A stretch of 64,000 nt of DNA. Origin: Sulfurimonas indica. Lineage in GTDB: Bacteria > Campylobacterota > Campylobacteria > Campylobacterales > Sulfurimonadaceae. The DNA lies in the NCBI RefSeq assembly GCF_009192995.1, contig NZ_SDID01000005.1, positions 1 to 64,000 of the forward strand, written 5' to 3'. This document shows positions 3,185 to 12,757 of this stretch, piece by piece; the stretch's first letter is position 1; every line of letters starts with the position of its first letter. The notes beneath the pieces are model-generated. The model ran no database searches, was not told the DNA's origin, and worked only from the letters and a program-made list of their open reading frames with translations. The position numbers were made by a program, and so were the translations under genes.

Positions 3185-3231
3185 GACTGTTAATCACTTG
3201 GTCACTGGTTCGAATCCAGTATCCGGAGCCA
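3185..3231 (+). pseudogene. 3' fragment of tRNA-Asn (anticodon GTT)
   Basis: From the anticodon loop onward this matches tRNA-Asn: anticodon GTT in loop CTGTTAA, variable region, T arm (CTGGTTCGAATCCAG), acceptor strand ATCCGGA, discriminator G and encoded CCA. The sequence upstream (about 3140-3184) contains no D arm and no 5' acceptor strand (TCCGGAT would be needed), so this copy cannot fold as a tRNA. It is best read as an attachment-site duplicate left by an integrating element; the intact gene should lie to the left, outside the window. Confidence 0.85.
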
Positions 3232-3232
3232 C
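3215..3232 (+). repeat. attL-type direct repeat (18 bp, tRNA-Asn 3' end)
   Basis: TCCAGTATCCGGAGCCAC, identical to 12740-12757. It is the T-arm and acceptor end of tRNA-Asn plus one base. The pair brackets a region whose only intact integrase lies beside the right copy, the standard arrangement for a tRNA-targeted genomic island. Confidence 0.85.
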
Positions 3233-3284
3233 AACTTTAACAAACCCCTAAAATATGAACTTTTAAGAACTTTATAATTTATTC

Positions 3285-3303
3285 TGGCAACCTATTGGCA
3301 ACC
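3285..3303 (+). promoter_or_regulatory. Two arm-type integrase sites, left end of island
   Basis: TGGCAACC occurs at 3285-3292 and 3296-3303, 11 bp apart in the same orientation, 53-71 bp inside the left attachment repeat. The same word occurs at the right end beside the integrase gene. One-helical-turn spacing and placement at both termini are typical of arm-type binding sites. Inferred from position and repetition. Confidence 0.55.
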
Positions 3304-3307
3304 ATAG

Positions 3308-4417
3308 CTACTCATATAAATCAACTCCATTATGATAATGAAATAACATCTCATCATCTAATTGCTTCTCTCGAAGATACTCTTGATACTCCTCTTCAAC
3401 ATCACTAAGCTCTTCATTCCCGCTAGAGTTGAAAAATTTTCTTTTTACCATCTGCTCAATATATCTATCCATCTGCTGATACTCTTCTTCAAATACTGCA
3501 TATGAGATATGTCTTACAAGCGGTTCTTGTTTGTAACGATGGGTAACGATTTTCATTTGCCCTCCCTCTGGAATAAACTCATCATAGCTTGCAACTATCT
3601 CAAACCCATACTTTAATAGCTCTTTATTATAGAGTGTCTCAATAGTTTCTATATAATCTCTATTTTTGAGTTTTATGAAACCTTTGGCAATAAGCTTATC
3701 GATAGATGATGGAAGTACCTCTAAAGCTCTCATCCCATAATCAAATGCTTTTAGTTTTGACAGATTACAAACTTCTTCAGGTACTTGGTGCAAAGAATTA
3801 CATGCTAAAACCTCTAAGTTTTGCAAGTTTATTATCTCTGGTGGGAGTGTTCTTACTTCTGTAAAGTGCATCATTATACTTTTTAAACTTTTTATCTCTA
3901 GCAATGCTCTAGGAAAATCAAACAATGGCACATGGCAGAACTCAAGCTCTTCTAAATTTGGGAACTGTTTGATAAAGTGCAATATGAAGAGGTTTTCATT
4001 ATGATGTATCACTAATTTTTTTAAATTGTACAGAGGCTTTGGCAATGCAGGTAAACGAATGTGAAAACCACACTCAACTATAATCAATTCCTCTAAAGTT
4101 GGTAAATATAAATCAGAGTCCAGTATATACGGTAACCGCAAGCGTATAAGTCGTAAGATTTTTAATTTTTTAAACCTTGGAATTGCAACTGGTAACTCTT
4201 CTAAACCAAATACAGAATCTAAAATTAGAGTTTCAAGGTTTTGTAGATGTTCTATCTCTTGCGGTATAAACCCATCGCTCTTTCCAGATTTTTTAAAACT
4301 AATTTCTAAAAACTCAAGTGAAAGCAGTTCTTCTTTACTCTTGCCTATCAGCTCATCTATTTTATACTCGTCTGCCCATGTTAACAGCTTTTCTACCCAT
4401 ATCTCTTCTACCTGCAT
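3308..4417 (-). CDS. Leucine-rich-repeat protein
   Basis: 369 residues, no signal peptide, probably cytoplasmic. Residues about 30-235 form roughly nine leucine-rich repeats of bacterial type (for example LQNLETLILDSVFGLEELP, LPTLEELIIVECG, FPNLEELEFCHV, LQNLEVLACNSLHQVPEEV). The C-terminal 130 residues are a separate acidic region with a run of glutamates (NEELSDVEEEYQEYLREKQ). LRR solenoids bind other proteins; the partner here is unknown. The start ATG (4417-4415) overlaps the stop of the FtsZ-like gene in a TAATG junction, so translation is coupled and the two products are probably made in matched amounts. Possible roles are recognition or regulation of the FtsZ fragment or of a host or phage protein. 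Confidence 0.75.
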   Translation of the reverse strand: MQVEEIWVEKLLTWADEYKIDELIGKSKEELLSLEFLEISFKKSGKSDGFIPQEIEHLQNLETLILDSVFGLEELPVAIPRFKKLKILRLIRLRLPYILDSDLYLPTLEELIIVECGFHIRLPALPKPLYNLKKLVIHHNENLFILHFIKQFPNLEELEFCHVPLFDFPRALLEIKSLKSIMMHFTEVRTLPPEIINLQNLEVLACNSLHQVPEEVCNLSKLKAFDYGMRALEVLPSSIDKLIAKGFIKLKNRDYIETIETLYNKELLKYGFEIVASYDEFIPEGGQMKIVTHRYKQEPLVRHISYAVFEEEYQQMDRYIEQMVKRKFFNSSGNEELSDVEEEYQEYLREKQLDDEMLFHYHNGVDLYE

Positions 4418-4722
4418 TATTTACAAATTGCCTCTTTGATTACATCATAGCTCTCAAGCGCAGCATCTCTACCCACTTCCGGATTCATCCCTGCACCTTT
4501 TCCACCAGTGATTTTCTCTCCAATTTGTACTTTGTGAGGTACTTTAGAATTATCAAGAGCTTGTTTGTCTGTATTGATGGCTACTAATTTTACTTTGTCA
4601 GCTATATCACTTAGAGCGAGGTTGTCAACCATATTGCCTCCACCTCCGCCAACACCGACAACGACTATTTTTATGCTTGTCGTGTTATCTACTTCTGTAA
4701 CTGTGAAATTTTCTTTTTGCAT
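4417..4722 (-). CDS. FtsZ N-terminal fragment (101 residues)
   Basis: Clear similarity to the first third of FtsZ: nucleotide-loop T1 (GVGGGGGN, residues 23-30), strand end INTD (49-52), and T3-like segment (GGKGAGMNPEVG, 73-84). The protein stops just before the tubulin signature GGGTGTG and lacks everything after it, including the T7 catalytic loop and the C-terminal tail. It ends in a clean TAA overlapping the ATG of the LRR gene, and the remainder of ftsZ is absent, so this is not a simple frameshift of a full gene. It cannot be an autonomous GTPase. It might bind FtsZ and poison ring assembly, or serve as a decoy or sensor module. Decay of a captured gene is the alternative, but the intact frame and coupling argue for use. 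Confidence 0.7.
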   Translation of the reverse strand: MQKENFTVTEVDNTTSIKIVVVGVGGGGGNMVDNLALSDIADKVKLVAINTDKQALDNSKVPHKVQIGEKITGGKGAGMNPEVGRDAALESYDVIKEAICK

Positions 4723-4935
4723 CGCTCTATCCTCACTCTTTTCATAATGGTATCATCTTTATTATTTATAGACAATTAATAACAAAGATGTCCCATCTCC
4801 AAGGGCAATGGCAGTGCCGATGCTACAAAGTAGCGAGGTTCTGGGTGGGTGGGTTCAGAGAGTAACGATTGAAACCATCTCACACAGAAATGCCATAGCC
4901 CGATTATCTACGTATCTGCTTCCATGTGAAAAAAT

Positions 4936-4966
4936 AAAAAAAAAAGAGTAGCACTCACGCTACTCT
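4936..4966 (-). terminator. Intrinsic terminator of ardA
   Basis: On the minus strand AGAGTAGC (4966-4959) pairs perfectly with GCTACTCT (4952-4945) across a 6-nt loop and is followed by nine T (4944-4936). The stem begins inside the last codons of ardA. Confidence 0.85.
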
Positions 4967-5491
4967 TCCAACTACCCCATGCTCAAACTCTACATAATCA
5001 TAGCTCAAATCTCTACCGATAGCACCATAATCTATATAGTTCTCTAAATATGTGGGAACATCACCAAATAAACCCTCTTGCACCATATCGTACGCCAGCA
5101 GCTCATAAATATCGGTAAAACTCGTATCGTTGCTATAATCATAAATATCGACATCATAGTTATCTATGCCTTGCGTGAGCACTTCTCGTTCGTTGTAGCC
5201 CTCATGTGAGAGTAGTTTTAGTTTCAGTAACTCATCCTCACGCAGTGTATCAATAATTTCTGCCAACTCATTTAGCTTGTAAATATCATCATACTCATCT
5301 ATAGCTATATCTGCCTCGTAATCTGTAATGAACAGCTCTTCGTGGTTATCTGTACCACTTACTACTTCGCCCTCATTAAGCACCTCTGAGAGAGCCTGTG
5401 TGAGTTCAAATTTACTCACTGGTAGTTCTAGCCATCTGCCGACTAAATGCCCTTCATTGTACGCTTGTAGGTCTGTTATATAAACTCGCAT
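4955..5491 (-). CDS. ardA: ArdA-like antirestriction protein
   Basis: 178 residues from the ATG at 5491, which has AAGGA six bases upstream; the TTG at 5509 is less likely. The opening RVYITDLQAYNEGHLVGRW matches the ArdA start (adduct-like YxxYNxGxLxGxW), and the segment EELFITDYEADI...DEYDDIYKLNELAEII matches the conserved middle. The protein is very acidic (many Asp/Glu in YDVDIYDYSNDTSF), as ArdA must be because it mimics the phosphate path of bent B-DNA to occupy type I restriction enzymes. ArdA genes usually sit in the leading region of conjugative elements and are expressed on entry. Here a kilobase of hairpin-rich non-coding DNA lies immediately upstream. Confidence 0.75.
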   Translation of the reverse strand: MRVYITDLQAYNEGHLVGRWLELPVSKFELTQALSEVLNEGEVVSGTDNHEELFITDYEADIAIDEYDDIYKLNELAEIIDTLREDELLKLKLLSHEGYNEREVLTQGIDNYDVDIYDYSNDTSFTDIYELLAYDMVQEGLFGDVPTYLENYIDYGAIGRDLSYDYVEFEHGVVGRVA

Positions 5492-5768
5492 TTTTAATCC
5501 TTTTATCAAATGTTTTTGTAAAATATTTGTCGCTCTAAAGCGAAACTAGCGACTGCGTAAGCAAGTCAAGACTTCCATGTTTCTTTTGGCTCAAAAGCCT
5601 TTTAAACTCTGACTGCTTGCACTGCTACTCTTATAAATAAACTGGATAGCTATTCATTTTAATTTCATGGTAGTGGTGTATGCTCTAAGAATTTAAAAGG
5701 ATGTTGTGTCAAAAGAATCAACTAATAAATATAAATCTCACACAAGTGAGTACCCTTATAGGTAAAAG

Positions 5769-5858
5769 CCAAGTGGCGTTTGAACGATAGAACATAGATA
5801 TAAGAGCTGTTCCGTAGGATGGTTAACATCAACACGACATTCTTTTAAACGCAGTAAT
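5769..5858 (+). repeat. Repeat unit A of non-coding block
   Basis: Begins with CCAAGTGGCGTTTGAACG (5769-5786) and ends with TAAACGCAGTAAT (5846-5858). Unit B at 6049-6154 has the same two ends (17 of 18 and 13 of 13 identical) but an unrelated middle. Within the unit GCGTTT (5776-5781) can pair with AAACGC (5847-5852), so the conserved ends may form a closing stem. Confidence 0.6.
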
Positions 5859-5930
5859 TAACTTATGACTGCTTGCAGGCATCAGTTATAAAAGAATGTG
5901 TGTTATGTCTAAAGCTAACTTAATTCATCC
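5817..5930. repeat. Long imperfect hairpin
   Basis: The outer arms ACATTCTTTT (5837-5846) and AAAAGAATGT (5890-5899) pair perfectly over 10 bp. Inside, AACT/AGTT, ATG/CAT and CTGC/GCAG (5860-5887) stack with single mismatches. Outside, GGATGGTTAAC...AACACG and GTGTTATGTC...GCTAAC...CATCC continue the pairing imperfectly to 5817 and 5930. Total span about 114 nt. It resembles a folded single-strand DNA element or RNA. Confidence 0.55.
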
Positions 5931-6048
5931 GCTGTGAATGTAAGGAGGTAAGGATAGCTTCATACTCGTTTGGAGATATACTTAGCTCTCTCATTCACGG
6001 CTGTAGGTGCATTCAGTTTGCGTCCAAAGCTATACCGCTTTATAAAGA

Positions 6049-6154
6049 CCAAGTGTCGTTTGAACGGCAGGCTTCATAGGCGTATAATAATAGTGAAGTG
6101 AGGAACGAACGGAGCTTACATGTAAAGAAGAAAAAAGAGACTAAACGCAGTAAT
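6049..6154 (+). repeat. Repeat unit B of non-coding block
   Basis: Begins with CCAAGTGTCGTTTGAACG (6049-6066) and ends with TAAACGCAGTAAT (6142-6154), the same ends as unit A. The middle is different and contains GTGAGGAACGAA (6098-6109), a word found inverted in the second non-coding block at 8955-8966. Confidence 0.6.
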
Positions 6155-6226
6155 CTAAACACGCAGAACTAAAGAGAAAAAAACAATAAAAAAGATATAA
6201 GCCGTACCGTGTAGGCTTCTAACGAA

Positions 6227-6271
6227 AGCAGACCTTGGCTGCTGTAGTAACGAAGTGAGACCTTGGCTCAC
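6227..6271 (+). repeat. Twin hairpins with identical ACCTTGG loops
   Basis: AGCAG-ACCTTGG-CTGCT (6227-6243) and GTGAG-ACCTTGG-CTCAC (6255-6271), each preceded by TAACGAA and 28 bp apart. The 7-nt loops are identical, while the 5-bp stems differ at several positions yet remain fully complementary. That is the pattern expected when base pairing, not stem sequence, is under selection. Confidence 0.6.
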
Positions 6272-6308
6272 GGAGTGGTGTATTGTGTAACGTGTAAGAG
6301 TGTGTAGT

Positions 6309-6360
6309 GGGAACAAGTGAGCTACCTCTCGGTAACATATAAGGGATTCACTATGTTCCC
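6309..6360 (+). repeat. Two-level stem-loop
   Basis: GGGAAC (6309-6314) pairs with GTTCCC (6355-6360). After small internal loops AGTGA (6316-6320) pairs with TCACT (6348-6352), and an inner TACC-TCTC-GGTA hairpin sits at 6323-6334. Confidence 0.5.
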
Positions 6361-6427
6361 AAATTAGTAGTTCATTTATGTAAGTTCATCATAGTTTTTT
6401 TAATAGGCGGGGGATGCTTACATGTGA

Positions 6428-6471
6428 GCGTGTGGGTTATTTACTATGTGCTTCCTCACGCAGAATATTTT
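6428..6471 (+). terminator. Possible intrinsic terminator ending the non-coding block
   Basis: GCGTGTGG (6428-6435) pairs with CCTCACGC (6454-6461) with one mismatch, and a T-rich tract (TATTTTT) follows at 6465-6471. If real, it would end a plus-strand transcript crossing the block. The long loop and weak T tract keep confidence low. Confidence 0.35.
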
Positions 6472-6552
6472 TAGCATTAAAGTAATTTTTAGTTTGAAGT
6501 TAGTTTGAAGTGTATATTAAATTTAAAAGTAGAGTGATTTGAAGTATTGGCA

Positions 6553-6834
6553 CTACATGTATTCTTGAGTTGTGGTATCTTCTGTATCTGCAAACAAGTC
6601 ACAAAGTTTGCATTCGAGTATATAGGCTATTTTATACAGATGTTCAATATTGAAGTGTTGTTTTTTAAGGTATATCTCTGCCTGTGAAACTAAACCTACA
6701 GATTTGTGCCCAAGTGCTTGAGCCAGTTGAAGCTGTGTATATCCTTTTAGTTTTCGTTGTTTTTTAACATTGTTGCCAATTTGTTTATAGAAGTTATCTA
6801 TTGTTTCAGATGGTAACTCTTCAGCATTTCTCAA
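6553..6834 (-). CDS. XRE-family helix-turn-helix regulator
   Basis: 93 residues from a TTG start at 6834; no in-frame ATG precedes the domain. Residues about 18-78 form an HTH_3/XRE domain (IGNNVKKQRKLKGYTQLQLA...HKSVGLVSQAEI). It is divergent from the lipoprotein gene at 6933, and the 98-bp gap contains several CAACTAG half-sites, one overlapping its own start, so autoregulation together with control of the lipoproteins is likely. The expected Q/S recognition-helix pattern is present. The target is inferred from the operator position. Confidence 0.8.
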   Translation of the reverse strand: MRNAEELPSETIDNFYKQIGNNVKKQRKLKGYTQLQLAQALGHKSVGLVSQAEIYLKKQHFNIEHLYKIAYILECKLCDLFADTEDTTTQEYM

Positions 6835-6891
6835 CTAGCTATACCTATTTTTCAGATTAGTTGAATAATAGGATGTTATTATTTTTCTATC

Positions 6892-6909
6892 AACTAGTGT
6901 TTACTAGTT
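6892..6909 (+). promoter_or_regulatory. Operator palindrome between XRE and lipoprotein genes
   Basis: AACTAGT-GTTT-ACTAGTT, 7-bp perfect arms with a 4-bp spacer, 24 bp before the lipoprotein start. Further half-sites occur at 6832-6838 (CAACTAG, over the XRE start) and 6858-6864 (TTAGTTG). Likely binding sites for the adjacent XRE protein. Confidence 0.6.
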
Positions 6910-6932
6910 TTAATATATAAGAGGATTTAAAT

Positions 6933-8054
6933 ATGAAAGCGAAATATATAATTGCACTGACAATTACCATTCTTTTTATATTTGCAGGTTGTGGAGGAGG
7001 TAGTGGAAGTGGTGGAAGTTCATCTTCAGCGGCTACTACACAAACAGGTACATTTATAGACGCTCCAGTAAAAGGGCTGAGATATGAAACAGCTACATTT
7101 TCAGGATTCACGGATTATCAAGGTAGCTTTCAATACAAAAGTGGCGAAAAAGTAAAATTTTTTCTTGCCAACTTAGAGCTTGGAACTGTTACAGGTGCCA
7201 AATGGATAACACCTTTAACACTAAATGGAGAAAGCGATTTAAATAATATAAGCAACAAAGCAATTGGTTTAGCAAGAATATTACAAACTATAGATAATAA
7301 TTCATCTAATGGTGCCTTATTGATTGTGCCAGATTCATTAAAAGATTTAAATATTACAGGGTTAAATTTAGACTCTGATGCAGATTTAAATACAATTTTA
7401 GCAAAAGCACAAATAAAAACAGGAATTAACTATATGTTGAAAAATGCAATGGATGCTCAACTAGAAATGAAAAAACAAATTCAAGCGACTACTACCTATC
7501 CATTGATAAATACATTAGAAAATTCAGGTATGGGAGTTACTTATTATCTATTGAGATTAACAGAAGAGAGTAATGTATTGATGCATATATATGGTAGAAA
7601 TTCATATGAAGTAGGTTTAACATTAGGAAGTGGTAATGGTATTAGTATCTATGATTTAGATTTAAATCAAGTAACTGAACATAATGGTAAACTTTATGCT
7701 GGAACGTATATTATTAAAGTTCTTCATGATGATGTAGTAAATAGTGTTTTTTTAATCAACTATCCTGCTCTTATAGACCAAACTGCTCACACAAAGCTGC
7801 AAAATGGAATTTTTAATTTTAATGGTGAAAAATTTTATAGTTTACATATGCAAGCAAGTGGTCAAGTAGATTTTACATATGATTCAGGATTGGCAGGGAA
7901 TAGTTATCCAGCATATATTTATGATACGAATCTTAGTTTAATAAGTCATATTAATGGTACAATCTCTCTTGATGCTGGAGACTATGTTGTATTTTTCGAC
8001 CATGGAGCAATAGATAAATCTTCTAACCCATTAACAGTTTCTTTTTTACCATAA
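6933..8054 (+). CDS. Putative lipoprotein with Ser/Gly linker
   Basis: 373 residues. Signal peptide with lipobox FAGC (Cys about residue 20) followed by a Gly/Ser linker (GGGSGSGGSSSS), then TGTFIDAPVKGLRYET...YQGSFQYKSGEKVKFF, a module that I recall from many surface or secreted proteins of Sulfurimonas-like bacteria (about residues 38-90). The rest is beta-rich and Asn/Asp-rich, with two similar C-terminal stretches (VLMHIYGRNSYEVGL... and YSLHMQASGQVDFTYD...) that look like paired beta-sandwich domains. Ends 9 bp before the next lipoprotein gene. Function unknown; a cell-surface adhesin-like or effector role is possible. Confidence 0.65.
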   Translation: MKAKYIIALTITILFIFAGCGGGSGSGGSSSSAATTQTGTFIDAPVKGLRYETATFSGFTDYQGSFQYKSGEKVKFFLANLELGTVTGAKWITPLTLNGESDLNNISNKAIGLARILQTIDNNSSNGALLIVPDSLKDLNITGLNLDSDADLNTILAKAQIKTGINYMLKNAMDAQLEMKKQIQATTTYPLINTLENSGMGVTYYLLRLTEESNVLMHIYGRNSYEVGLTLGSGNGISIYDLDLNQVTEHNGKLYAGTYIIKVLHDDVVNSVFLINYPALIDQTAHTKLQNGIFNFNGEKFYSLHMQASGQVDFTYDSGLAGNSYPAYIYDTNLSLISHINGTISLDAGDYVVFFDHGAIDKSSNPLTVSFLP

Positions 8055-8063
8055 GAGGATAAA

Positions 8064-8609
8064 ATGATGCGAATGGTAAAATATGTTTTCTTTTTAATAG
8101 TCGTATTGTTCATTAGTGGATGTACAACACACCAAGGTAATGCTCAAATACCTTTAACTCCAATTTCATACATCTCAGATGAAGATAACAATATGTCAAC
8201 GATAATGTATTATCGTGCGGTAGACTTTTCGGGAGCATTGAGGTTTGGCAATTATACATGTTTCATTGATTTTGATTTTCATCATGATGATAAATATGAA
8301 GTCCAAGATATTATCATGTATGCTGATAGGAATCAATATACAGTTAAAAAAGTAACACCCGGTGTACATAAATTTTCTTTGGTAAATTTATTTAATGGTG
8401 AGCTTTCTTCTATTACAGCTAATATTGAATCAAACAAAACTTATTTTTTGGCTGTTACTTATAATCCTTTCAATCCTATTCCAACATTACAATTTAGAAC
8501 AAAAAAAGACTTTGAGGATAATGCGAAAGACGATAAGCAGGTCATTGTTGATGGAAAATGTTTTCCTAAACTTGATGGTTGCCATTTTAAAGAGGTAACA
8601 AGTAAATAA
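8064..8609 (+). CDS. Putative lipoprotein
   Basis: 181 residues. N-terminal signal peptide with lipobox ISGC (Cys about residue 20), then a soluble beta-rich domain (residues 45-165) that includes an aromatic/acidic segment CFIDFDFHHDDKYE. No recognised family, though the layout (bound to the envelope, DUF2846-like FLAV-type strand YFLAVTYNPF) is common among small lipoproteins. Co-transcribed with the preceding lipoprotein; both probably fall under the XRE regulator. Confidence 0.6.
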   Translation: MMRMVKYVFFLIVVLFISGCTTHQGNAQIPLTPISYISDEDNNMSTIMYYRAVDFSGALRFGNYTCFIDFDFHHDDKYEVQDIIMYADRNQYTVKKVTPGVHKFSLVNLFNGELSSITANIESNKTYFLAVTYNPFNPIPTLQFRTKKDFEDNAKDDKQVIVDGKCFPKLDGCHFKEVTSK

Positions 8610-9159
8610 TTCCTCCTCTTTTAAATATTAATATTCTTGGCTACCAAGAAAGATATAGCATTAAAGCAAAAAAAATAAAAATTTTATATTGTTTAAACCT
8701 GAAGATAGTTGAGGCTAGACCCAATATCTTACTCTTGCACATTGAAAAACTACAAGCATTATATTGGGTTGGCTTATGTTTTTCTTTGCGTGAGAGGCTT
8801 CTTAAAGGTTGTATTTACAATGTCTTGACGACAGTCTAAGCTACAGTTTACAAACTGAGTACGAGCCTTAACAGGCTCTACTATTTCGATAATGAAATAT
8901 TGCTTTAGCTTGGTACTCAGTCGGATGAACCTATCAATGCTTTGCATTCGTCACTTCGTTCCTCACCCTAACGGGTTGATAGAACCAATCCTCCCTCGAC
9001 CAGCTACGCATATTTCATATCTCAGTAGAGATGTGAGGAGTAGTAGTTGTAAGTGTTTTTAGTGCATCTATTAACTATATATGGATACACTTGAGCTGGA
9101 TGCACTTCTAAGCCCCTATTTTACGAGGTTTAAGTGTATCCTAAGAGGAAGTGTAAATT
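8610..9159. other. 550-bp non-coding block with hairpins and iteron-like repeats
   Basis: No supported gene. Contents in order: TTCTTGG-CTA-CCAAGAA hairpin (8634-8650, just after the lipoprotein operon); ACCCAATAT/ATATTGGGT inverted repeat (8719-8769); CAGTTT/AAACTG (8844-8857); a three-way-junction-like structure (8854-8921); AACGAAGTGA and GTGAGGAACGAA on the minus strand (8951-8966), both also found on the plus strand of the first non-coding block; and several copies of a GGATACACTT-like word from 9061 onward. The shared words suggest that the two blocks are related in inverted orientation. Confidence 0.55.
8854..8921. ncRNA. Candidate structured RNA: three-way junction
   Basis: The outer stem ACTGAGTAC (8854-8862) pairs perfectly with GTACTCAGT (8913-8921). 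Inside are two independent hairpins: GAGCCT-TAAC-AGGCTC (8863-8878) and TATTTC-GATAAT-GAAATA (8882-8899). All three helices are perfect in 68 nt, unlikely by chance in AT-rich DNA. No match to a named riboswitch or RNA recognised; the strand is undetermined and it could act as DNA. Confidence 0.45.
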
Positions 9160-9178
9160 TTAGGTCTGGATACACTTG
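9061..9178. repeat. Iteron-like repeats TGGATRCACTT
   Basis: TGGATACACTTG at 9082-9093 and 9167-9178, TGGATGCACTTC at 9097-9108, an inverted copy AAGTGTATCC at 9132-9141, and degenerate inverted copies at 9061-9070 (AGTGCATCTA) and near 9149. The last copy lies inside the final codons of the ATPase gene. Clustered 10-12-bp repeats next to a RepA/helicase-like ATPase are typical of plasmid-style replication origins; a terminator or regulatory role is the alternative. Confidence 0.5.
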
Positions 9179-10014
9179 GCAATCTTTTTTTTACCTACAA
9201 GATCTACTTCAATTAACTCGTTTTTGTGCCGAGCAAATGTATTTCGGGCTTCCGATGATAGTTTATTTGTCAGCTCTCTTACAGTAAGTTCCCCATTATC
9301 ATTTAAAATTTTATCTATAGCTTTTTTGACTTGCTTAATGGAATAAAGCCTGAAATCTGATAGATGCTCATTGGAGACTCTTGTTTTCTGTAGTTTTAAA
9401 TTTCGATATGATTCTGATGAATTATCTAAAAAATAGACAATATCACTTTTAGAGATGATAGTTTCAGCATTACCTTTAATCTTAGTTTCTTTACCTCCAA
9501 GCTTTTTGTTGTATTGTGTTGCGTGAGCAATAACTATGACGGTATAACCTGCTTTTGTAAACTCTCTAATAAACTCCATAGTTTTTTGAGCACCTGCATT
9601 TGTATCTAAATCTTCTCCATCTGCAAAGTCTTTTAAGCTATCAAAGACAACTATTTTACCATCGCCATCTACATCCAACAAAGCATCAAGAGCTATCTGC
9701 ATATTTGTATTGAGGTGGATAAAATTACTAAGATAATTTAGCAGTTCATCATTGATATTATAGTCGGCATCAAGCCAAATAACATCCTCTTGAGTCATTC
9801 CAGCATCTACTAATATCTGAGCTATAGAATAACTTTTACCACTCTTTGATAACCCATAGATAAGATGTAGGCAGTTATTGTAAAAAGGTGTGCCTTTAAT
9901 GTTTTCAACCTTTTTAGGTTTGCTATAGCATTTAGTACGCAAATCTGACAATATATCGGATAATGTCTCTTCCTCTTCATGAGTAGCCGGTTCTTTAACC
10001 GGCATAGCACTCAT
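9160..10014 (-). CDS. RecA-fold ATPase (AAA_25/RepA-helicase-like)
   Basis: 284 residues. Walker A GLSKSGKS (residues 54-61), Walker B IVVFDSL (about 118-124), then a TVIVIAHAT sensor strand near 163 and a basic KLQKTR segment near 210. This is the hexameric RecA/DnaB-like fold of plasmid RepA and phage replication ATPases. The C-terminal 60 residues (KQVKKAIDKILNDNGELTV...) look like a winged helix for DNA binding. It overlaps the upstream gene (ATGA) and ends at iteron-like repeats, consistent with a replication-initiation role for the excised island. It may instead act in island maintenance or DNA repair. Confidence 0.7.
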   Translation of the reverse strand: MSAMPVKEPATHEEEETLSDILSDLRTKCYSKPKKVENIKGTPFYNNCLHLIYGLSKSGKSYSIAQILVDAGMTQEDVIWLDADYNINDELLNYLSNFIHLNTNMQIALDALLDVDGDGKIVVFDSLKDFADGEDLDTNAGAQKTMEFIREFTKAGYTVIVIAHATQYNKKLGGKETKIKGNAETIISKSDIVYFLDNSSESYRNLKLQKTRVSNEHLSDFRLYSIKQVKKAIDKILNDNGELTVRELTNKLSSEARNTFARHKNELIEVDLVGKKKIAKCIQT

Positions 10015-10454
10015 GAGGCTTCCTTTATCATAGTTATTGACAAATCTTTATAGTTTGCAGTTATCTGTGCTACATGTAGAGCTTTATCATTTAAAACTTC
10101 ATGTAATTTTTGACAGAAAATGCTAAAATTATCACAATTTTCTGCTAAAATACCGGTAGAAATGTTCTGGTTAGTTCTTTCTGCTGATGATACTGAGCTA
10201 TTGGTCGTAGCTCGTATCTCATCTACGGTTTTTGTTTGTTTCTTTCTAACGGTCCTCACTTTTGTTCCTTTATCTTTTGTAAAATACTCTATACCGTCGA
10301 TAGTTTTTACACCGTAACCAAGCTTTTGAGCTTGTCTTTTTAGAGCCCAGTGAGTTCTGCCTGGTAAAAGCTTTAAAACATCATTTACTTTCGCATCGTG
10401 CTTTACATTATCTTTTATTATCTGCTTTTCAGCATTAGTGTATCTTACTGCCAT
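10011..10454 (-). CDS. SANT/Myb-like DNA-binding protein
   Basis: 147 residues. The N-terminal 45 residues (YTNAEKQIIKDNVKHDAKVN...LLPGRTHWALKRQAQKLG) have the three-helix layout of bacterial SANT/Myb or phage HTH domains in which the third helix contains GRT-x-x-A. The middle is basic (KVRTVRKKQTKTVDE), then Ser/Asn-rich. It lies between the AlpA-type gene and the ATPase gene, overlapping the former by one base and the latter by four. It probably binds island DNA as a replication or excision accessory factor. No specific family name is certain. Confidence 0.6.
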   Translation of the reverse strand: MAVRYTNAEKQIIKDNVKHDAKVNDVLKLLPGRTHWALKRQAQKLGYGVKTIDGIEYFTKDKGTKVRTVRKKQTKTVDEIRATTNSSVSSAERTNQNISTGILAENCDNFSIFCQKLHEVLNDKALHVAQITANYKDLSITMIKEAS

Positions 10455-10687
10455 TATGCCACCTCCACTGTTTGAGCTAAAAATTTAGCTACTTCGTCTA
10501 TTGGAAATAGAACTCTAGAGTTCTTACTGTTTCCAACTTTGATATAGTTTGGAAGACCATAGCCTTCAGCCATCAGTTTAGAGACTGTTGAGAGTCCCAT
10601 GCCTAGTTCCTGTGCCAGCTCTTGTTTTGAGAGGGCAACTTTGCCATACTTCTCGTAAAGAGAATTATAAATTTGATGTGTCATCAA
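10454..10687 (-). CDS. AlpA/excisionase-type helix-turn-helix protein
   Basis: 77 residues, a MerR-like winged HTH of the AlpA/HTH_17 class: KQELAQELGMGLSTVSKLMAEG (helix-turn-helix), then a wing with NYIKVGNSKNSRVLFPIDEVAKFL. Such proteins act as excisionases or as activators of the integrase in P4-like islands, and as DNA-binding starters of small replication operons. First gene of a three-gene operon with the SANT-like protein and the ATPase. Confidence 0.75.
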   Translation of the reverse strand: MMTHQIYNSLYEKYGKVALSKQELAQELGMGLSTVSKLMAEGYGLPNYIKVGNSKNSRVLFPIDEVAKFLAQTVEVA

Positions 10688-10813
10688 AAATCCTTTTTAT
10701 TGTCAGATAACTTTAGAACTGCTTAGTTCTATCTGATCAACGATGGCATATTACCTTAGATTTTTTTTTAACATGGTGGTAGTAAGTAGATAGTTACTTA
10801 CTACCAGCAGTAT

Positions 10814-11461
10814 TTAAATATTCCAGAATAAAGTAGGTTTGTTTTGTAGTTTTGATGCTAATGGTTCATAATCAGAGGTTAATACTGCATCTTGAGGACA
10901 TAGATTAATATCTATTAGTTCGAAGTAATTATCTATATAAGCTTCACCAATTAACTTCCATTGTTTATAGTTATCAGTGTTCATATTGAGTTGTTTATCC
11001 GTTTTTTTACCATCTATAATAGCTAAGATTTTTTGAACCTTTTTCCATGTATTGATTTCTATATAATTATACTTAAAATGATATAGTCTGGCAGGATAAG
11101 ATGTGTGTGAAGTATATAAGACATTATGTTCTGGTTGAGCTGTAAATCCATAAGGATGTAGCTTTAGTGTTAAGTATTTTTCTTGTTCTGAATATCCTAA
11201 AGTATCATAAAAATCCACTTGTTTACTTAAAGTTGATGCATTTTTTTTAATTTGTTTAACATCTTCATTTCTAATAGCAAATTCATAGGCTAATCTTCCA
11301 AGCCAATATTTTTGAACTACCGCAGGTTGTTCATTGATTTTAGCAGTTTGTTTTAACCTTTTTGCATCACTAAAATCAATATCTTCAATCTGTCTATTTG
11401 TTTGTAAAATAATATCTGCTTCTGTTTGAGCATCAAGTAATATACTTTTTAAATCATTCAT
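10814..11461 (-). CDS. Hypothetical protein coupled to integrase
   Basis: 215 residues from the ATG at 11461, which overlaps the integrase stop (ATGAATGA), giving translational coupling; a start at 11494 would extend 41 bases into the integrase and is less likely. The protein is cytoplasmic, Lys/Gln/Tyr-rich, with no recognisable motif; a mostly helical N-terminal half is followed by a region rich in aromatics (YPARLYHFKYNYIEINTW). Coupling to the integrase suggests a role in recombination or island stability, but this is only positional. Confidence 0.55.
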   Translation of the reverse strand: MNDLKSILLDAQTEADIILQTNRQIEDIDFSDAKRLKQTAKINEQPAVVQKYWLGRLAYEFAIRNEDVKQIKKNASTLSKQVDFYDTLGYSEQEKYLTLKLHPYGFTAQPEHNVLYTSHTSYPARLYHFKYNYIEINTWKKVQKILAIIDGKKTDKQLNMNTDNYKQWKLIGEAYIDNYFELIDINLCPQDAVLTSDYEPLASKLQNKPTLFWNI

Positions 11462-12569
11462 CCCACAACTCCATAACCTCTTCCATCCCTGCATCGGGAG
11501 CTAAGTGAGCATATCTAGCAGTAGTTTCTAATTCACTGTGATTTAAAAGCTTCTGCACCGTCTGTAATGAAGTACCCTTCATAACTAAGTTACTTGCAAA
11601 TGTATGTCTGAGCGTATGTACAACTACTCTGTTAACTCTATCATCACTCTCAAGCCCCTCATTGAAAAGTTTGTTCAGCACCCTTTGCAAGCGTTTTTGT
11701 AGTGATAGTTTGGATAGAGTAAAGATGTTGTCATTAGGTCTCAGTTCTTTTAATAGAGGTTCTAAAACTTGTAACACATCTTTATTCAGATAGCCTGTAT
11801 ATCGTTCATTACCGTCCTTTTCATCTACAAGGGTAACTTTGTTACCGGAGAAGTCTTTAGCTTTGAGTTGCATGATTGCACCCAGTCTAGCACCAGTAGA
11901 GAGTGCTAACTCTACAAATAGTTTTAACTCATGGTGTAAGTCTGCTACGGCTTCTTTGAGCTCTGCAACTTCGTCTGTAGTTAAAAATCTGTCTCTTTTG
12001 ACTTTACGGGCTTTTTTTTGTTTTTTAGTTATGTGGTCTCTGTCGTAGGTTCTGAGGTCTGTTACTGCATCATGGACTTTTAAAGTGTTTTGTGGTTGTG
12101 CATTGTAGTAACGAATAGCTGAACCAATCATCCCTATCATCATATCTATACTGCGTGCTGAAAGTGGCTTTTGCATGTTTTCAAGTCTTTCTCTAAAAGC
12201 TAACAATTTCTTTAGCGTAACCTCTTCACTAAAATCTTGCTTCATGTGTTTTTCCCATCGTCCTTGATAATCTTTGCGAATAGCATCACTTAAAGCTTTG
12301 TTATTTACATAATTATTCCACACATCTGCAAATCTAAATTTCTTTTTCTTTTTACTAGCTATTGGGTCTTCTCCATGACGAACCATATTGATAGCTTCAG
12401 CACGCTTTATGTTGGCATAGTTTTCTGTAATACCCTCACTCTTCTTTCCAACCGTTACTCTTTGTGTTTTATTGTTAGCATCTTTGTATGTGTAGCTGTA
12501 GCTAATATCTCCATTGGCAAGATGATTTTTGTATACACCGACATACTTCTTCGATTTTTCTCTACCCAT
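11454..12569 (-). CDS. Tyrosine integrase of the tRNA-Asn island
   Basis: 371 residues from the ATG at 12569; the TTG at 12578 is an alternative. N-terminal arm-binding domain (about 10-70), core-binding domain (75-180), catalytic domain with Arg228 (STGARLGA), His318-x-x-Arg321 (HTLRHTFAS), His344 (LLNHSE) and Tyr353 (TARYAHL): a complete active site. It reads away from the right attachment repeat 170 bp upstream. A TGGCAACC arm motif lies 4-11 bp before the ATG, over the ribosome binding region, so the integrase could repress its own synthesis. It differs clearly from the broken integrase at 623-1755. Confidence 0.92.
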   Translation of the reverse strand: MGREKSKKYVGVYKNHLANGDISYSYTYKDANNKTQRVTVGKKSEGITENYANIKRAEAINMVRHGEDPIASKKKKKFRFADVWNNYVNNKALSDAIRKDYQGRWEKHMKQDFSEEVTLKKLLAFRERLENMQKPLSARSIDMMIGMIGSAIRYYNAQPQNTLKVHDAVTDLRTYDRDHITKKQKKARKVKRDRFLTTDEVAELKEAVADLHHELKLFVELALSTGARLGAIMQLKAKDFSGNKVTLVDEKDGNERYTGYLNKDVLQVLEPLLKELRPNDNIFTLSKLSLQKRLQRVLNKLFNEGLESDDRVNRVVVHTLRHTFASNLVMKGTSLQTVQKLLNHSELETTARYAHLAPDAGMEEVMELWDE

Positions 12570-12572
12570 CTC

Positions 12573-12610
12573 TGGCAACCTTTATGTAAAATGGCAACTT
12601 TTTGGCAACC
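12573..12610 (+). promoter_or_regulatory. Three arm-type integrase sites, right end of island
   Basis: TGGCAACC at 12573-12580, TGGCAACT at 12592-12599 and TGGCAACC at 12603-12610, all in the same orientation as the two copies at the left end; the last two are 11 bp apart, like the left pair. They lie 130-167 bp inside the right attachment repeat and just upstream of the integrase start. Confidence 0.55.
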
Positions 12611-12739
12611 ATTTATTAGATTTATGTAGATAATTATAGTGAAATAGAGATAAGAGAAAGCTTTTAAATATCGTTAAATAGCCGTAAAATAGGTGATAGA
12701 AGATTTGTGAATTGGTTTTTAAAATTTTATAGTTTCAGC

Positions 12740-12757
12740 TCCAGTATCCGGAGCCAC
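12740..12757 (+). repeat. attR-type direct repeat (18 bp)
   Basis: Identical to 3215-3232. Only the last 18 bases of the tRNA-Asn end remain here, followed by a T run and the promoter of pglB; core chromosome resumes at 12758. Confidence 0.85.

Follow-up and report, generated by a model that had tools for sequence, protein, structure and literature searches.

A short N-terminal FtsZ segment encoded with a leucine-rich repeat protein on an integrative element of Sulfurimonas indica

Genes and features of the locus

The window analyzed here is a stretch of 64,000 nucleotides from Sulfurimonas indica (contig NZ_SDID01000005.1). On its reverse strand, positions 4417-4722 encode a protein of 101 residues, hereafter abbreviated as mFz, which its open reading frame, Pfam and PDB matches and fold model identify as an N-terminal segment of FtsZ with the order S1-T1-H1-S2-T2-H2-S3-T3-H3. 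A profile search aligns mFz with the Tubulin/FtsZ family of Pfam (PF00091, 1.2e-16) over profile positions 1-103 of 190, and a sequence search matches its residues 17-99 to FtsZ chains of the PDB (up to 7.2e-21). The nucleotide loops T1 (GGGGN), T2 (NTD) and T3 (GAGxxPEVG) are all present, and the frame ends just 5' of the T4 signature; loops T4 to T7 are missing and, among the hallmarks of a functional FtsZ, the T4 signature GGGTGTG, the T7 synergy loop and the C-terminal domain are absent. mFz covers only the first quarter of FtsZ. A tblastn search of the window with host FtsZ found no FtsZ segment besides mFz, in agreement with the preliminary description, which had stated that no other part of ftsZ remains.

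The stop codon of mFz overlaps the start codon of the following gene in a TAATG junction, in which TAA and ATG share one A (the sequence reads ...TGTAAATAATGCAG). This second gene (3308-4417, reverse strand) encodes a leucine-rich repeat (LRR) protein of 369 residues (LRR_14, 7.4e-13), and the initial account of a coupled pair, with the first product ending before T4, is borne out by the open frames, the Pfam and PDB matches and the junction itself. The LRR horseshoe spans approximately residues 30-230 and is followed by an uncharacterized C-terminal region; the LRR family is the sole Pfam match above cut-off, and the same search found no NTPase domain of the kind expected in NLR-like receptors (STAND NTPase plus LRR). 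No effector domain was recognized in this protein by the domain search and the PADLOC scan, and no PADLOC-DB profile matched mFz, the LRR protein or the neighboring ArdA at E<=0.01. A fold search with the model of the LRR protein, the C-terminal third of which is of low confidence, retrieved generic LRR proteins only. A promoter-like site (TTCACA-16-GATAAT, 4903-4930, reverse strand; consensus match only) lies upstream of mFz, and a terminator-like hairpin (4942-4969, reverse strand; also a consensus match only, with one found vs 0.9 expected by chance) follows ardA, which suggests that mFz and the LRR gene form their own transcription unit.

The pair lies inside an integrative element of 9.5 kb (3215-12757), for which both an integrase and flanking att repeats are present, as had been proposed in describing it as part of a mobile island. 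These are exact direct repeats of 18 bp, TCCAGTATCCGGAGCCAC, located at 3215-3232 and at 12740-12757; chance alone would be expected to yield none. Their sequence is that of the tRNA-Asn(gtt) 3' end, and the first copy forms the end of a 47-nt 3' half of tRNA-Asn (3185-3231, one mismatch). The integrase, a tyrosine recombinase (11457-12578, reverse strand; PF00589, 1.5e-24), adjoins the right end of the element, and mFz and the LRR gene occupy the opposite end. Other genes of the element, all on the reverse strand, encode the antirestriction protein ArdA as cargo neighbor of mFz (4955-5509; PF07275, 2e-29), an AAA ATPase that may be RepA-like (9160-10014) and a small DNA-binding protein of the HTH_17/AlpA type (10454-10687); an XRE-type regulator is also present. 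Outside the left att copy, the window contains a Zeta-toxin-like kinase with a 95-aa frame just 5' of it (1873-2837), which form a candidate toxin-antitoxin pair, and another tyrosine recombinase gene, broken into two frames (623-1755) and probably the decayed integrase of a neighboring element.

Conservation and origin of mFz

The host genome has one normal ftsZ elsewhere, an open frame of 371 residues located after an ftsA-type gene, and mFz shows 43-44% identity to the first 100 residues of its product. All 135 Sulfurimonas genomes were searched for orthologs with the window fragment as query, and short homologs with 68-75% identity were found in genomes G047, G083 and G145, together with partial ones in G011. 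Those of G047 (107 aa) and G083 (99 aa), which are two other Sulfurimonas species, are intact and have nearly coinciding ends, so that of the six loci (window included) three contain an intact frame of 99-107 residues and three a broken one. In G145 residues of T1 are lost by deletion and a stop is present; in locus B of G011 the N-terminal half is gone and the second half is left; and in locus A of G011 an in-frame deletion of 216 nt leaves MQKEKFTVTEV joined to GRDAALESYDAIKDAICK. The homologous loci thus include variably broken forms (3/6), and none has the FtsZ part at full length.

Pairwise dN/dS among the intact copies ranges between 0.09 and 0.14, values that are approximate because dS (1.2-2.1) is near saturation; the corresponding figures for the partner genes described below are 0.24 for LRR, 0.13-0.26 for AAA+ and 0.23 for the 94-aa protein p94. 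These rates place mFz as the most strongly conserved of these genes. In a phylogenetic tree including 23 FtsZ rows, the three intact copies and that of G145 form a single clade (support 100/99), the position of which among FtsZ proteins is unsure because of its long stem. No full-length relative of mFz is found in the 135 genomes of the genus. An order-wide search of 299 genomes returned no mFz outside the genome of the window among the matches listed, which extend down to scores far below that of intact mFz, and a scan of genome contigs recovered mFz in at least one named genome among the matches listed; no copy from another genus was seen in these listings, and viral contigs gave none either.

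These data bear on gene decay, which the preliminary description had considered the main alternative and according to which mFz would be the remnant of a former full-length ftsZ copy. Decay is real in other lineages, namely G145 and both loci of G011. For the window copy we reject it, given the three intact orthologs, the dN/dS of about 0.1 and the single origin: orthologs at 71-82% identity have retained a single reading frame with a common length and end, whereas substitution alone at 0.3 per site would leave only about 8% of frames still open, even without indels. With no full-length relative among the 135 genomes either, we regard decay as very improbable.

Three other sources of mFz were considered and rejected. 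Recent duplication of the host ftsZ conflicts with the 44% identity and the separate clade. For a phage-borne origin, the matches in phage records are partial and below 60% identity (of the ten listed, two carry an ftsZ annotation and the others none), and for a plasmid origin only FtsZ-type matches below 60% identity were obtained.

Another reading would make the product of mFz incidental and its short frame mainly a device coupling the translation of the LRR gene. The TAATG junction of the window is consistent with this idea, as are the overlap with the p94 gene in G047 and the fact that mFz stays first while the partner gene changes. However, the strong amino acid conservation across the whole of mFz counts against it, since a leader cistron needs no such conservation, and we consider it quite improbable. 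On comparative grounds, mFz is instead a distinct, strongly conserved and stably inherited short protein of mobile islands.

Partner genes in related loci

The preliminary description had envisaged a coupled pair of FtsZ fragment and LRR protein on a mobile island. The coupling, the mobile element and a conserved end of the fragment are supported; direct adjacency to an LRR gene is confined to the window, and elsewhere the partner is an AAA+ protein or p94. In G083 an AAA+ gene, ortholog of that in G011, follows mFz after 15 nt, and in G047 mFz overlaps the gene of p94, a homolog of which also lies 3' of the mFz relic in locus B of G011. In G145 the AAA+ gene adjoins an LRR gene, about 5 kb away from the broken mFz. 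The order in G011 is lipoprotein, mFz relic, AAA+ and LRR. The last two genes overlap by 8 nt, and the fragment between lipoprotein and AAA+ has collapsed to a possible peptide of 29 residues; this genome is also the only one of the 135 with an ortholog of the LRR protein (54-58% identity in the search, 56% overall). We infer from these arrangements that the ancestral order may have been mFz-AAA+-LRR, with AAA+ lost in the window.

The AAA+ gene is found in 8 of the 135 genomes and co-occurs with mFz in three of them, vs 0.3 expected (p=0.0013, with genomes that are not independent). Its product is ClpX-like, with retention of Walker A and B motifs, the arginine finger and a hydrophobic-G-F loop, the latter represented by an MGF or VGF tripeptide at the site of the ClpP-binding loop of ClpX. 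It has no N-terminal zinc-binding domain, and the pore motif GYVG is changed to G(I)xG, with the pore tyrosine missing.

Pieces of other essential proteins accompany the same AAA+. In G139 genes for an SSB paralog, AAA+, a DnaB paralog and an HTH protein lie in a row, with the SSB paralog between lipoprotein and AAA+, that is, in the slot of the mFz relic in G011. Fusions of a DnaB N-terminal domain with LRRs stand beside AAA+ in G071 (above the Pfam cut-off) and G131 (below it), and relatives of these fusions occur in G005 and in G069, where genes for an SSB paralog and a WYL regulator are found in the vicinity. A fusion of the DnaB C-terminal domain with LRRs is located near the mFz relic in locus B of G011, together with a reverse-transcriptase-like gene. 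Further WYL regulators neighbor AAA+ in two genomes, G080 and G071, and mFz in G047. Since the partners of mFz vary and DnaB/LRR fusions lie beside the same AAA+, the pair of the window can be viewed as one version of a larger locus of modular make-up. We suggest that it exemplifies a modular accessory system assembled from parts of essential host proteins; the pattern hints at a single system but does not prove it.

The coordinates of these and other LRR-associated genes are as follows. Proteins combining a DnaB N-terminal-like region with LRRs were located in four Sulfurimonas genomes (L133:4810-6162, L135:6771-8237, L019:7037-8488 and L156:1782-3233); two were scanned for the DnaB N-terminal domain, with a match above the Pfam cut-off in L133 and below it in L135. 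L027:5161-6408 encodes a DnaB C-terminal domain without the Walker A part fused to LRRs. A TmtA-like protein of 1383 residues (L158:7649-11797, G104; PADLOC, 4.1e-47) lies beside LRR, AAA and PcfJ-like genes in a defense-island setting, and PcfJ-like zinc proteins occur near AAA+/LRR loci in Sulfurimonas L031, L156 and L158.

Two further readings draw on this gene content. The pair could serve the maintenance of its element through replication, segregation or addiction, alongside ArdA and the RepA-like ATPase and in parallel with the SSB, DnaB and ClpX paralogs of its relatives. The location within an integrative element and the row of SSB, AAA+, DnaB and HTH genes in G139 are consistent with such a role, for which the FtsZ relatives TubZ and RepX, which serve plasmids, offer a precedent (PMC2875224). 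Yet no replication genes are obviously shared by the other mFz loci, LRR-fused DnaB fragments are not replicative helicases and mFz alone should not form filaments; we consider a maintenance role unlikely.

Equally unlikely, in our estimate, is an arrangement of bait and guard, in which mFz would copy a surface of FtsZ attacked by proteins of phages or rival elements and the LRR protein would hold mFz and signal when it is bound or altered. Extended to the related loci, this reading implies a decoy-type immune module in which FtsZ, DnaB and SSB are copied as short baits, paired or fused with LRRs and a ClpX-like unfoldase, and attack on the bait triggers a response; we find this wider proposal doubtful too. 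The bait reading accounts for the recurrence in the genus of LRRs beside pieces of essential proteins, including the DnaB/LRR fusions and the SSB paralog described above, and for the WYL regulators and antirestriction genes close by, and it has a precedent in CapRel, which senses the complex of FtsZ with the phage protein Gp0.4 (PMC13423816). Against it, a bait is expected to evolve fast whereas mFz is the most conserved of the set, Gp0.4 has been modeled on the synergy-loop face of FtsZ, which is absent from mFz (PMC13423816), the LRR protein has no recognized effector domain, also in the PADLOC scan, and the DnaB N-terminal match of G131 falls under the Pfam cut-off. If mFz were a bait, the system would be a bacterial parallel to plant receptors with decoys, and effector-triggered immunity based on FtsZ could be tested with a two-gene construct.

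Predicted fold and possible action on FtsZ

The AlphaFold2 model of mFz has pLDDT values of about 92-96 for residues 21-100, in the order strand-helix-strand-helix-strand-helix. Among the best matches of the fold search, all of them FtsZ, many crystal structures superimpose on the model at 0.8-1.1 Å; this agreement is partly built in because the input alignment included FtsZ sequences. The predicted fold corresponds to the half of the FtsZ nucleotide-binding domain with three strands and would carry much of its 'top' (plus) surface. In the alignment, intact copies share an SDIADKVK loop, and all have K at position 75, which is L in each of the FtsZ rows compared. Position 75, which we take to be L68 of E. 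coli FtsZ, lies in the T3 loop, a loop believed to face the filament contact in FtsZ, and for this reason the change from L to K could weaken or alter docking. mFz keeps the top-surface residues Q54 and D93, the latter presumably equivalent to D86 of E. coli FtsZ, also on the top surface. Q54 corresponds to Q47 of E. coli FtsZ, which has been named as a residue of the GTP-binding surface (PMC13423816).

Our preferred reading, held tentatively, is that mFz, a cargo protein of mobile islands, is a stand-alone half-subunit that binds host FtsZ under the control of an LRR or AAA+ protein. Lacking the T4 phosphate loop, the synergy loop and the C-terminal domain, it should neither polymerize nor hydrolyze GTP. 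It would dock on the synergy-loop face of host FtsZ so that filaments become capped or marked, and division would be slowed or redirected. The co-translated partner, which is LRR in the window and in relatives a ClpX-like AAA+ unfoldase, or AAA+ plus LRR, would control mFz or reach FtsZ through it; the action of ClpX on FtsZ is documented (PMC3983244, PMC5256927, PMC2897852). The shared end, low dN/dS, single clade, FtsZ-like model and top-surface residues are points in favor of this half-subunit effector, as are the translational overlaps in the window and in G047, the ClpX-like nature of AAA+ and its co-occurrence with mFz. The low dN/dS is as expected if mFz touches a very conserved target. 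Conversely, an intact mFz is missing from G011, which has both AAA+ and LRR, and AAA+ is missing from the window, which has mFz and LRR; half of the interface (T5, T6, H7) is missing from mFz, and only three intact sequences are available; because it is broken in three of six loci, mFz must also be dispensable. We favor an active effector over a bait on account of the conservation of mFz and of the face on which Gp0.4 has been modeled. The earlier idea of a division effector with its controller is a plausible proposal. As for a toxin-antitoxin pair, in which one product would be toxic alone and neutralized by the other, the feature seen at the locus is the tight, coupled gene order.

Comparison with known systems sets mFz apart in several respects. 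It aligns with FtsZ over residues 1-100, keeps T1-T3 and is 43-44% identical to the host protein but, beyond lacking the T4 signature, T5-T7, H7 and the C-terminal domain, it belongs to a separate clade and resides on a mobile island. If it caps filaments, mFz would resemble the small blockers of FtsZ assembly SulA, MciZ, T7 Gp0.4 and CbtA, none of which, to our knowledge, has been reported as a piece of FtsZ; an mFz that blocks division would be an inhibitor of a new kind, derived by truncation from a subunit of the very protein it targets. CbtA further differs in pairing with CbeA (PMC5624674), whereas mFz pairs with LRR or AAA+. The proteins FtsZl1 and FtsZl2 are likewise accessory FtsZ relatives outside division clusters, but they keep the GGGTG(S/T)G loop and long C-terminal parts (PMC2875224), whereas mFz ends before this loop and has no family-specific C-terminal region. 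CapRel-Ebc would share with mFz, if the latter is a bait, the use of FtsZ as a phage-sensing component, but it is a fused toxin-antitoxin that exploits the cell's own FtsZ, and a CapRel domain is absent at the mFz-LRR locus. The AAA+ of mFz relatives is 24-29% identical to host ClpX and shares its Walker motifs and the MGF/VGF loop, but it has its own N-terminal region in place of the zinc-binding domain and a changed pore, and no AAA+ lies next to mFz in the window. Literature searches on FtsZ with LRR defense or PcfJ yielded no described system, in line with the preliminary description, which knew of none that combines an FtsZ fragment with an LRR protein. Being conserved and limited to the first ~100 residues of FtsZ, mFz would offer a natural probe of the part of FtsZ that suffices for partner binding, and the recurrence in one genus of LRRs beside DnaB and FtsZ pieces provides a concrete list of loci to test.

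Other FtsZ-like proteins were encountered in the same searches. Membrane-anchored ones of about 250-258 residues (L037:5191-8069 in G139, L038:3336-6214 in G053 and L033:4203-7087 in G097) are encoded by genes that overlap or abut one for a double-AAA Cdc48-like protein of about 700 residues; that of G139 matches Tubulin (1.3e-23) and its Cdc48-like neighbor matches IetA of PADLOC (8.5e-42). At these loci an FtsZ relative and an AAA+ protein have been paired independently. An FtsZ-like protein of 315 residues with N-terminal membrane segments (L031:7246-8193, G145) is encoded adjoining the broken mFz, and on the Marinomonas algicola plasmid NZ_CP061942.1 (L028:3361-5942) a gene with a PcfJ domain overlaps one for an FtsZ-like protein that is annotated only as hypothetical. 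Finally, a divergent FtsZ-like mini protein of 83 residues in G097 (L032:788-1039), the gene of which abuts that of a WYL-type regulator, has no T1 and T3 motifs and may be of separate origin.
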